In this document: in pieces, positions 3,128-52,149 of the stretch
How positions within the stretch are numbered: the first letter of the stretch is position 1
Layout: each line of letters begins with the position of its first letter
Assembly: GCF_007725405.1 (NCBI RefSeq)
Contig: NZ_CP042163.1
Location: forward strand, 3,472,001 to 3,536,000
DNA from: Shouchella miscanthi
GTDB lineage: Bacteria; Bacillota; Bacilli; Bacillales; Bacillaceae_D
Direction: 5' to 3'
DNA length: 64,000 nucleotides
Translations under genes and position numbers: made by a program
The notes under the pieces: model-generated
The model's input: the letters and a program-made list of their open reading frames with translations, nothing else
What the model was told of the DNA's origin: nothing
Databases searched by the model: none

Positions 3128-5524
3128 TTATGATGCAGGATTCCCTGCAATGACCGGCTGGCCAATTGGCAAATCTGCAATAGCCTGTTCCGATACATAC
3201 GTTCCAAATGGCACACGGTAGACTTCAGTAGCGTCTTTTTTATTAGTGAAAATCATGTAGCCGCCATATAGCCCTTGTAAAGCTGTTTTTGGTGCGATTA
3301 AGAAACTATTGCTTGTAATGGTTTCTCCTGCTGGAACCGAAATAGAAGCATTTGTTTGCAGTGTCATACCACTTGCACCAGCTGGTAATGTTCCGTTAAC
3401 TGCTTGGAAACTCGTTTGCACATTAAACGATTTTGCTTCATCACTCGAATTTGTAACACGTAAGCTCTGATGCTCACGAATGTTTCCATTCGCCGTGCTA
3501 ACTGGTCCGAAGCTAATTGCACCCGTACGATCAGGAATAAGCGTTAATAAACTGTCTTCAACATGGAGGCCATCCATTGTTGTTTGGAACATCATCGTTG
3601 TATCAATAGCAGCTTGCGGATTCACCCGTCCTGCTCCTACTTCAAATACGTTGTAATCGTTTGTCATTGGCACTGCTGTGTTCATTAACTTTGTTTTAAT
3701 ATCAGCAGGAGAAAGCTCTGGATTCGCTTGAAGCATCAGTGCAGCAATTCCTGCAACATGCGGAGATGCCATAGACGTACCGGAAGAGCGGCCATATGAG
3801 TATTCGTAATCACCAATGTATTCAGGTCCTGCCATGTAGCTCGGGATTGTCGAAAATACGTCTACCCCTGGCGCAACAACTTCTGGCTTAATCGCCGCAG
3901 TGTAATTAACTGGACCACGTGAACTAAAGTCTGCAAGTGTATCACCTATTGTCGTAATCGCACTCATATCACCAAACGTAATGGTTGACTCTTTATCCAA
4001 AAGGTCCGCAATGGCTTGACCTTGCTCATACGTTAAAGAGAACGATGGAATGTAGGAATGACTTGCACCAACGTAGACCGGATTATGTCCTGCACCTGGT
4101 ATATTATTGTAGATAACAATTCCAGCAGCACCTGCATCCTTCGCATTCGCAATTTTGTCGACAAAGGCAATCTCTCCGCGAGCAACAAACGCTACTTTGT
4201 CTTCTACATCAACATTTTCAAAATCTTGCACCCTACCTAAGCTTGCAGATACAACTTGTAACGTTTCACCAGTCAAACTTGCAAGGTCGGTTTCAAATGA
4301 TTCCGCAATAACACGTAAGTCGCCAGGTAATGTCTCACCACCAACCGAGTATTCACTTGAAAATTCAGGAACTTCAATTGGTACATTACTCGCTCCTACT
4401 GAGATTGGTAATGCTGCTGAACCAGGTGCACCAATGGTATAAAGGCCATTTCTCCCGCTATTTCCAGCAGACGTAACTACTGTAACCCCTGCTAAAGCAG
4501 CGTTATTTGTTGCTATACCGGTTGGAGCAATAGGGTTATTTGTTGCACTCCCTAGAGATAAGTTTATGACGTCCATACCATCTTCAACAGAACGTTCGAT
4601 ACCAGCAATAACACCAGACGTAGCACCAGAGCCATAAGGACCAAGTACGCGGTACGCATACAATTCTGCATCAGGTGCCACACCAGTGACCGCATATTCT
4701 GATTCATTTTCTCCTGTTCCATTCGTTGTACCACTTACGTGTGTACCATGACTTGTATAATAAGAACGGTTAGCTGAATCAAACTCTGGTAGTCCAGATG
4801 CTAACCAGTCTTCATATGTGGCTTCCATTGGATCATCGTCGTTGTCAACGAAGTCATATCCACCTTTATAAACACCTTTTAAATCTGGATGGTTGTAATC
4901 TACTCCTGTATCTAGTACACCAATTTTTATGCCTTCTCCAGTTAAACCATCAATATGTAAATCACTTACACCTAAAAAAGGAATGCTATCCACCATTGTT
5001 GCATCAACCGGCTCATCGTAGCCCTTTTCATCAACAGGGTGAATTAATTCAACTTCTTCATCGTTATAAATCGCTTTAATTTCTTCATATTGAAGTAAAT
5101 CCTCTACTTTATTTGCTGGTAACGTAAGCGCTACTCCGTTAAATATGGTTGTATACGTAAAATTTACTGTGTAATCGAGTTCTTTTTCCTGTGATTGAGG
5201 AAAGACATCGTCTAAAATTTCTTCAAACACTTCTTGGGATTCAGAAACAGTCGCTTTTGCCTCCGCTTCCGTTAATACACTTCCCTCTTCTTCTGCTAAA
5301 GCTAGGGCTACTTGTTCTGGTAGCTCATCTAGTTCAACAATAATGGAAATCTCTTCATCACTTGTAAGATTAATAGAATCCGGTAAGAGAAGTTTTGTAT
5401 CCGTTTGATCCTCCGCTTTTACGTACTGCACGGAAGTAAAAGAACTTGCCACCATACAAAATGATAGCGCTACGACAGATAGTGATTTTGTACAGTTTAA
5501 ATTTGTCGTTTTTTTCAAATGCAT
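3128..5524 (-). CDS. vpr: Secreted subtilisin-like serine protease, Vpr-like, with PA domain
   Basis: 798 aa. Domains in order: signal peptide (about 1-37, ending VKA), inhibitor I9 propeptide (about 55-165), and an S8 catalytic domain with Asp205 (LDTGVD), His259 (SHGTHVSG), oxyanion Asn355 (SAGNSG) and Ser584 (GTSMASPHV). A protease-associated (PA) insert lies at about 400-510 between His and Ser, as in Vpr and lactocepin-like enzymes, and a beta-rich tail follows. A TTG at 5518 is better spaced from AAAGGGTGA than the ATG at 5524 and gives a typical LKKT signal start, so the true start may be two codons downstream. It heads a same-strand run with sipW and a tasA-like gene. Confidence 0.92.
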   Translation of the reverse strand: MHLKKTTNLNCTKSLSVVALSFCMVASSFTSVQYVKAEDQTDTKLLLPDSINLTSDEEISIIVELDELPEQVALALAEEEGSVLTEAEAKATVSESQEVFEEILDDVFPQSQEKELDYTVNFTYTTIFNGVALTLPANKVEDLLQYEEIKAIYNDEEVELIHPVDEKGYDEPVDATMVDSIPFLGVSDLHIDGLTGEGIKIGVLDTGVDYNHPDLKGVYKGGYDFVDNDDDPMEATYEDWLASGLPEFDSANRSYYTSHGTHVSGTTNGTGENESEYAVTGVAPDAELYAYRVLGPYGSGATSGVIAGIERSVEDGMDVINLSLGSATNNPIAPTGIATNNAALAGVTVVTSAGNSGRNGLYTIGAPGSAALPISVGASNVPIEVPEFSSEYSVGGETLPGDLRVIAESFETDLASLTGETLQVVSASLGRVQDFENVDVEDKVAFVARGEIAFVDKIANAKDAGAAGIVIYNNIPGAGHNPVYVGASHSYIPSFSLTYEQGQAIADLLDKESTITFGDMSAITTIGDTLADFSSRGPVNYTAAIKPEVVAPGVDVFSTIPSYMAGPEYIGDYEYSYGRSSGTSMASPHVAGIAALMLQANPELSPADIKTKLMNTAVPMTNDYNVFEVGAGRVNPQAAIDTTMMFQTTMDGLHVEDSLLTLIPDRTGAISFGPVSTANGNIREHQSLRVTNSSDEAKSFNVQTSFQAVNGTLPAGASGMTLQTNASISVPAGETITSNSFLIAPKTALQGLYGGYMIFTNKKDATEVYRVPFGTYVSEQAIADLPIGQPVIAGNPAS

Positions 5525-50816: not shown

Positions 50817-51911
50817 ATGTCATCAACTGTAGCTGCACCAGAAGTAGGAGCTAAAATAGTCGAGTGGTATAGTTGCATTATTTCCTATGATCGAGAGCAA
50901 GCCATTCTTTCCAAACACGAAGTCAATCAACTGATGAATCGAATGGTTCCGGATGAAAAAGTGAAGTCGTATTATGAATTAGTAAACTTTAGACACCAAT
51001 TATTTATTGAGCCGAATTCAAGCGAGCATAAACAATTTGCAGCTATTGCGATAGCAGATAAAGCAACCGATGAGTACATGCAATTTATGTACTACTTTAT
51101 GTACGGACAAAATGAATTCCATAACGGACGTTATAAATCAGCTGTTCGCTCCTATAAGATAGCGGAGCGACTTTTAGAACAAGTACCTGATCAAATTGAA
51201 AAAGCAGAGTTTTACTACCGATCTGCTATTAGCTATTATCGAGTAGATCAATATATCTTTGCTGTTTCCTATTTTGAGCAAGCCCTTGAAATCTTTGAAA
51301 AGAAACCTGATTATGAAGAAATTGTGCTCAATATTCACATTTTCTTAGGCGGGATTAGTACGGAGCTTCTTAAATTTGAAGAAGCAGAAGATTTACTACA
51401 ACATGCCTTCAGACGTTCTAAACCGTATCCTGTGACACGTGCGCTCATCTTAAGAATTCTTGGTTTAAATCGAGTCAAACAAAACCGACAAGATGAAGCG
51501 ATCCAGTATTTTGAAGAGGCACTTTTACTTAAAGAACATAAAGATTCAGTAGTCGGAACAAAAACAGAGTACAACCTCATTAATGTGAAGCTAAGAAAAG
51601 AACCGAATAAAAAAGAAAACCATGACATATTAAATAATATATCACACAAAGTTCAGTCACTTAATATGACTGAATATGTCATCCGCTGTAAAGTAAGTCT
51701 CGGTCTTTACGTGCTAAATGATACAGCGATGATCAATGAAGGACTTGAAGAATTGCAACAAGCCGAATTATACTTTGAAGCTTCTGAACTAGCGGAAGAA
51801 GTAGTGGACGTGTATTCAAAACTCGGAAAGTTTGAGAAAGCTTTGCATTTCATGAGGATGGCACATCGAATGCGCATCCATCAATCTTGTATAGGAGTTG
51901 AACAAACATGA
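50817..51911 (+). CDS. Rap-family response-regulator aspartate phosphatase/inhibitor
   Basis: 364 aa, soluble, built of tetratricopeptide repeats after an N-terminal three-helix bundle. The N-terminal VGAKIVEWYSCI is typical of Rap proteins, and TPR units such as FEQALEIFEKKPDYEE and RQDEAIQYFEEALLLKE are readable. Rap proteins dephosphorylate Spo0F or sequester ComA and similar regulators, and are inhibited by imported Phr peptides. The stop overlaps the start of the phr gene (ATGA). ATG behind GGGAGG. The actual target is unknown. Confidence 0.93.
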   Translation: MSSTVAAPEVGAKIVEWYSCIISYDREQAILSKHEVNQLMNRMVPDEKVKSYYELVNFRHQLFIEPNSSEHKQFAAIAIADKATDEYMQFMYYFMYGQNEFHNGRYKSAVRSYKIAERLLEQVPDQIEKAEFYYRSAISYYRVDQYIFAVSYFEQALEIFEKKPDYEEIVLNIHIFLGGISTELLKFEEAEDLLQHAFRRSKPYPVTRALILRILGLNRVKQNRQDEAIQYFEEALLLKEHKDSVVGTKTEYNLINVKLRKEPNKKENHDILNNISHKVQSLNMTEYVIRCKVSLGLYVLNDTAMINEGLEELQQAELYFEASELAEEVVDVYSKLGKFEKALHFMRMAHRMRIHQSCIGVEQT

Positions 51912-52045
51912 AAAAGAAAACATCTCTTCTTATTGCATTAGCAGTTGCTCTTTCAATTGGTAGCTTCAGTTTAGACGCCAGTCATTCTGCTGATAAAGCA
52001 GATGGTCGCTCTATCACTGCGTTAGATAAAGCGGATGGTAGATAA
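51908..52045 (+). CDS. Phr [17 protein letters not shown] precursor with duplicated DKADGR
   Basis: 45 aa, overlapping the rap stop by 4 nt. A Lys-rich start (KKKTSLL) and a hydrophobic core (about 7-20) form a Sec signal peptide, followed by a short hydrophilic tail. The tail contains DKADGR twice, at residues 29-34 and, at the very C-terminus, 40-45, separated by SITAL. Most Phr precursors carry the signal once near the end, with a basic second residue, as Lys is here. Mature DKADG or DKADGR is inferred. Two copies per precursor may double the dose of signal. Confidence 0.88.
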   Translation: MKKKTSLLIALAVALSIGSFSLDASHSADKADGRSITALDKADGR

Positions 52046-52060
52046 TTTAGTGTACCGATA

Positions 52061-52097
52061 AAAAAACGTATTTCTCGTAATGAGGAATACGTTTTTT
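52061..52097. terminator. Terminator after phr
   Basis: AAAAAACGTATT and AATACGTTTTTT pair with CTC/GAG continuing inside; T-tracts on both strands. Confidence 0.9.
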
Positions 52098-52149
52098 ATG
52101 TTGGAAGCGCCTTTTAAGAGACTACGTTTGTTCACACATGCCTCCCCTA

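Follow-up and report, generated by a model that had tools for sequence, protein, structure and literature searches.

The stretch of DNA analysed here (the window) covers 64,000 nucleotides of the Shouchella miscanthi genome, which is a single contig of 4.25 Mb. It carries a gene for a Rap-type receptor and, directly 3' of it on the same strand, a short open reading frame (ORF) for a Phr pheromone precursor in which the hexapeptide DKADGR occurs twice. The locus looks like an ordinary chromosomal one, with the following features.

50817-51911, + strand: rap, Rap-type receptor of 364 aa with a RapH_N three-helix domain plus TPR repeats
51363-51365, + strand: codon of Rap Glu183, a putative partner of DKADGR Lys2; in the alignment it takes the place of RapF Asp194, the Phr anchor
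51908-52045, + strand: phr, pheromone precursor of 45 codons (45 aa), its start overlapping the rap stop as ATGA
51908-51979, + strand: Sec-type leader of phr; inspection by eye puts the likely signal-peptidase site behind LDA (residue 24)
51992-52009, + strand: internal DKADGR copy, Arg codon CGC
52010-52024, + strand: linker SITAL between the two DKADGR copies
52025-52042, + strand: C-terminal DKADGR copy, Arg codon AGA, forming the last residues of the protein
52055-52104, + strand: probable intrinsic terminator of rap-phr, a hairpin with a U-rich 3' arm (-24.3 kcal/mol, z -6.96)

A Rap-Phr pair and its probable mode of action

Judged by its sequence, the product of 50817-51911 clearly has a Rap fold. 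It matches PF18801 (RapH_N) at 83.3 bits against a cut-off of 27 and TPR_12 at 64.3 bits, and its 364 aa fall inside the 250-500 aa range of the Rap subfamily of RRNPPA receptors. Its nine best PDB matches are all Rap structures, including RapF (4i9c, E=1.6e-24), Rap3T, Rap105, 6t3h (a letterless Rap), RapJ, RapI, and RapH. Translation of 51908-52045 (+) gives MKKKTSLLIALAVALSIGSFSLDASHSADKADGRSITALDKADGR*, which confirms the 45-residue ORF overlapping rap by ATGA that a preliminary description had proposed, together with its two DKADGR copies, the SITAL between them, and the ending of the protein on the last copy. The two copies start 11 residues apart, and the C-terminal one has a basic residue, Lys, at position 2. 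The leader was called by a home-made rule (basic start, hydrophobic stretch); LDA at the putative cut site is kept in all three species that carry the locus. Phr matched none of the Pfam models, and its single NCBIfam match (E 0.09) is to an unrelated family. The identification of the ORF as a Phr precursor in the preliminary description is nonetheless upheld by its Rap neighbor, with the PF18801 domain, TPRs, and PDB matches given above, and by a receptor anchor that fits Lys2. The hairpin at 52055-52104 was equaled by 0/200 shuffles, and a similar inverted repeat, read by eye, lies 3' of phr in two other species (G003 and G005); it is absent from the list of a simple terminator scan, and a promoter scan at the locus stayed at chance level.

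Short ORFs of this kind accompany Raps elsewhere. A search of 60 genomes, that of the window among them, gave Rap matches at E <= 1e-30 in 16, with 103 matches in all; 79 of these adjoin a leader-plus-signal ORF (61/79 with a 4-base overlap). The home-made rule missed Phr-like ORFs at L020, L021, L022, L024, and L033, so the figure of 24/103 Raps with no near Phr is too high.

We consider it highly probable that rap and phr are a Rap-Phr quorum-sensing pair of the ordinary kind, with each precursor chain giving rise to two hexapeptides of identical sequence. By family precedent, the two genes would very likely be translated from one message, the precursor would be exported by Sec and stripped of its leader, and secreted proteases would excise both copies, yielding two identical DKADGR per precursor. 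The peptide would then re-enter through an oligopeptide permease and bind its own Rap in the TPR pocket, where Lys2 would contact Glu183, and the receptor would be switched off its target; the second copy would mainly raise the signal yield per precursor. The genome holds six subtilase matches and nine SBP_bac_5 matches over the Pfam cut-off. One subtilase (PF00082) match lies in the window at 3629-4939 (-), inside a 798-codon open frame, and another lies ∼4 kb before the window start (G000:C1:3466867); both are, by family only, candidate Phr-processing proteases.

Purifying selection on both DKADGR copies

A repeated 6-mer appeared in 7/300,000 shuffles of the 21-residue Phr tail, which rules out a chance repeat. 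The DNA of the two window copies differs at 3/18 bases in two codons, Ala (GCA/GCG) and Arg (CGC/AGA, two bases), and all three differences are synonymous. The preliminary description had the copies differing "at two third positions and in the Arg codon," which is right if one of the third positions is the Arg codon's own and wrong otherwise. With P values of 0.010 to 0.020, the synonymous pattern within the gene is weak evidence of selection; the strong evidence comes from comparing the species.

When 13 genomes of the genus were queried with Phr, it was found in four: the window's own (G000), G060, G003, and G005. In G060, of the same species, the phr DNA is identical to that of the window, with two copies. 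The S. oshimensis DSM 18940 orthologue (L012; the same locus as in G003) has a Rap of 96% identity and two copies in the same arrangement, DKADGR-SITAL-DKADGR. G005, a third species, has a Rap of 78% identity and three copies, its tail reading DKADGR-SVPAH-DKADGR-SVTPL-DKADGR with 11-residue spacing throughout. S. oshimensis DSM 18940 was also the sole match in a named genome collection, from which the window's own genome was possibly left out, and no Rap from the phage and plasmid collections reached 60% identity (25-30% among the matches listed). The overlap of phr with rap and its position are as in the window in both G003 and G005. A BCCT transporter 3' of phr is kept in both; upstream, G003 also shares a metallophosphoesterase, for which no counterpart was found at the G005 locus. 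A comparison of phr tails in relatives had been suggested in the preliminary description; the internal copy is present in 3/3 other orthologues found (G060, G003, and G005), with no single-copy case.

When first copies were compared with first copies and last with last across the three species, at least 10 base changes were inferred, all of them synonymous (P 1.9e-7 to 2.3e-6, computed for 10 synonymous changes with a synonymous fraction of 0.21-0.27). The leader varies at 12/28 residues and the linker before the last copy at 2/5, where the G005 orthologue differs; DKADGR varies at 0/6 in either copy. Within the three-copy precursor of G005, the 13 pairwise base differences between copies are likewise all synonymous. 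DKADGR is the longest block common to all seven copies of the three species. The pentapeptide DKADG was considered as the conserved unit and rejected because Arg6 is invariant in all seven; its codon is AGA in each last copy, and the four internal copies use CGC, CGT, and CGA. An invariant Arg6 would be compatible with later trimming of DKADGR to a shorter form. The copies are preceded by Ala, His, or Leu, and internal ones are always followed by Ser. In all three species, the first copy has a CGN-type Arg codon (CGC, CGT, and CGC) and the last has AGA. These separate codon families mean that the duplication predates the three species and that the copies have not been homogenised since. Thus, both DKADGR copies are under purifying selection, as the preliminary description had surmised, and the locus offers a clean codon-level case of selection keeping identical signal copies in a Phr precursor.

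By analogy with Phr105, it is plausible that two copies give a higher dose or that each is processed in its own way. Release of the internal and the C-terminal copy by different proteases, or at different times, would add growth-phase control, which we regard as possible though somewhat doubtful. In Phr105, with two ERPVGT copies, WprA was required to mature the internal one, whereas the C-terminal copy was matured by all single-protease-mutant supernatants tested (PMC11343458). The window's internal copy, unlike the C-terminal one, needs an extra C-terminal cut (Arg-Ser), so its release may depend on a particular protease. However, the flanks vary before the copies and are constant (Ser) after the internal ones, and no kinetic difference follows from this. 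A repeat arising as a neutral by-product of replication slippage, with only the C-terminal copy acting as a signal, would explain why orthologues differ in copy number (2, 2, and 3; in the GKHDFH group 5, 3, and 6). Yet between species the internal copy has only synonymous changes, against 12/28 variable residues in the leader, and the differences within the three-copy precursor are synonymous without exception; the codon pattern largely refutes slippage, which we judge very unlikely.

The duplication could also be a transient stage in the acquisition of a new signal specificity, with one copy free to diverge, as excerpts of PMC5199041 propose for the evolution of Rap-Phr pairs. Diverged copies, read by eye, do occur in the same Rap clade (L007/L101 and L082). 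Here, though, all three species, and G060 besides, have identical copies that change only synonymously, and the first and last of them keep separate Arg codon families, which points to long-standing maintenance rather than divergence and makes a transient stage improbable. There is scarcely any chance that the phr ORF is untranslated or encodes a secreted peptide unrelated to Rap: it is short and has no significant family model, but leader-plus-signal ORFs adjoin most Raps (79/103), most of those with the same 4-base overlap (61/79), and its copies bear codon-level selection.

An ordinary Rap-Phr pair with two identical signals in one precursor has precedents. A catalogue of duplicated Phr signals dates from 2016, and biochemical tests, on Phr105, from 2024. 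Bacillus clausii, one of the species named below, has since been renamed Shouchella clausii. Excerpts of PMC5199041 describe intragenic duplications of Phr signals, identical or diverged, with B. clausii among the examples in the S11A legend; those of PMC9765709 report 5/311 unusually long Rap propeptides with repeats, and those of PMC10075063 admit long propeptides in a search because of signal duplications. According to the relevant parts of PMC11343458, both identical copies of Phr105 can be matured by secreted proteases, and up to 8 copies are mentioned. Since identical internal and C-terminal copies were tested there, the arrangement is already in print and is not new, and we dropped the description "categorically new."

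Rap105-Phr105 of phage phi105 (PMC11343458) resembles the window locus in having two identical hexapeptides, one internal and one C-terminal, joined by LKLA in place of SITAL. It differs in being phage-borne, in its signal (ERPVGT), and in having had maturation and binding tested, whereas the window locus is chromosomal, carries DKADGR, and has one orthologue with three copies. Phr3T of phage phi3T (PMC11343458) likewise has one internal and one C-terminal copy per precursor, but these are RRGHTA and SRGHTS, of unequal affinity, whereas the window copies are identical. The duplicated-autoinducer loci of PMC5199041, the RapK2 group and B. clausii included, share the intragenic duplication; the excerpts stress its transience, whereas identical DKADGR copies are conserved here across three species. 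In the literature searched, no paper was found for DKADGR, DKGDIT, GKHDFH, or KHDFHQ, and the two papers listed with the substring DKADG alone are on other subjects, judging by their titles. Among the matches listed, "clausii" in the Phr/Rap literature led only to PMC5199041, and "Shouchella" in the quorum sensing/Phr/Rap literature led to none.

The receptor anchor and the possible target of Rap

Glu183 of the window Rap would be a matching partner for Lys2 of DKADGR, in agreement with the basic second residue that the preliminary description had pointed out. The pair thus resembles RapG-PhrG of B. subtilis, in which the signal likewise has Lys2 and the Rap anchor is Glu instead of Asp; unlike the window Phr, PhrG has one signal copy only. 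The corresponding residue of RapF, Asp194, forms a salt bridge with basic residue 2 of Phr (PMC3601957), and the excerpts of PMC3601957 and PMC3601965 give the Glu/Lys combination in B. subtilis for the RapG/PhrG pair only. Across 90 aligned Raps of Shouchella and its neighbours (90 of the 103 matches, with 13 omitted that are shorter than 340 aa or contain a stop), the anchor is Glu in 83, Ile in 4, and Asp in 3, hence acidic in 86/90; Lys2 is found in 73 of 80 signals picked by hand (79 adjacent Phr plus L033). Among the other RapF anchors, in RapF numbering, the alignment has Tyr152 kept in the window Rap, Gln183 replaced by Asn, Arg223 by Leu, Asn227 by Ile, Gln263 by Thr, and Asp338 by Glu, while Tyr66 falls on a gap or a Pro. 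With these changes, an identical binding geometry cannot be assumed.

Four Raps, one of them in the window's own genome (L009, L131, L132, and L135), have Ile at the anchor, and their Phr end in VHPIGGY-like sequences without a basic residue 2. They form one clade, in which all Phr are without Lys2, and which would depart from the usual Rap-Phr salt bridge. Three Raps whose Phr (GQANTGR) has Gln2 keep the Glu anchor. Covariation of the Rap and Phr anchors thus amounts to one supporting event and not to a rule. A column-by-column scan for associations between Rap and signal residues gave many low P values, which may follow clades rather than contacts, and was left unused as evidence. An association of an acidic signal position 4 with Arg at RapF position 226 was not clean: 7/7 Raps with Tyr226 also have Glu4, and 10/53 with Arg226 are without an acidic residue 4.

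Spo0F phosphatase activity was judged by Gln or Glu at RapH position 47 and by the Tyr84 pocket Glu45/Asp46/Leu50. RapH Gln47 is catalytic; Q47E is active and Q47N dead, according to excerpts of PMC3035606. In the window Rap, aligned by way of RapF instead of RapH, Glu47 and Asp46 are present, but Pro stands at position 45 and Lys at 50; Spo0F phosphatase activity is possible for it. Over the 90 Raps, position 47 is Asp in 71, Glu in 15, and Gln in 1. Considering the behavior of Q47N and Q47E, most Raps of Shouchella and its neighbours may lack the known mode of Spo0F dephosphorylation.

Signal arrays in Shouchella and its neighbours

An exact tail repeat of at least four residues is present in 18 of the 79 adjacent Phr ORFs: 4/9 in the window's own genome, 4/10 in G003, 4/10 in G005, one each in six more genomes, and none in the remaining six of 15. 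The statement of the preliminary description that known Phr precursors mostly carry a single signal is fair for the Phr family at large, but identical multi-copy Phr are documented (in excerpts of PMC5199041 and PMC11343458), and repeats are common in this genus. In this genome, 4/9 Rap-Phr pairs, nearly half, would be misread if only one C-terminal signal were looked for. The largest arrays have six copies, of GKHDFH in G005, of GKHEFT in G009, and of DKGDIT in G010 (one copy reading DQGDIT). Outside the window, the same genome has a five-copy array of G[K/R]HDFH (L003, G000:C1:1976796-1977851) whose first copy reads GRHDFH and whose copies are spaced alternately 9 and 8 residues apart; its orthologues hold three copies (G003) and six (G005), which makes it more suitable than the window locus for testing copy-number dose. 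The genus-wide arrays of 2 to 6 copies and the copy-number differences between orthologues are the most useful part of these observations: with natural variants at hand (2 versus 3 copies here; 3, 5, and 6 in the paralogous group), the dose question becomes testable.

On the 90-row Rap tree, the cluster of the window Rap with its two orthologues (support 100) joins a 15-row group (support 100) within an 18-row split (support 87, with midpoint rooting). Every one of the 16 Phr recognised in this split is multi-copy, 13 with an exact repeat and 3 diverged (L007, L082, and L101; by eye); no Phr was recognised at L018 and L112, three downstream frames included. With hand-picked copy-number labels, the multi- versus single-copy state needs two changes on the tree.

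These patterns lead us to suggest, tentatively and with some reservation, that arrays are long-standing in one Shouchella Rap clade, that their copies mostly change together at specificity shifts (DKADGR, GKHDFH, GKHEFT, PKQEF, and KHEH), and that copy number is an inherited dose setting. If true, such concerted arrays would contrast with the published view of duplication as a short-lived intermediate holding two different signals. For PKQEF, PKHDFE, and SKQDT/PKNET the spacing of copies is 15 residues and for KHEH 16; that several signal groups within one clade agree in this respect hints that they go back to one older duplication. Other observations speak against concerted change: spacing is unequal elsewhere (14 for KHEH in L083, 11 for DKADGR, 8-9 for GKHDFH, and 16 for GKHEFT), and copies have diverged, by eye, into SKQDT and PKNET in L007 and L101 and into GKGDFE and PKGDVE in L082. 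Repeated independent duplication after each signal change could have produced the arrays as well.

Other genomes have two or three tandem phr genes behind one rap (L031 and L015 in G008, L023 in G011, L076 in G004, and L016 in G010); the signals at L031 are DKTDIAS, DKADGVS, and DKTDGAS. These Shouchella genomes multiply the signal by whole-gene duplication instead. The window's own genome also holds two rap remnants, one with an internal stop that matches only residues 5-184 (L010, G000:C1:2112741-2113277) and one that is an N-terminal fragment only (L011, G000:C1:3801848-3801985).
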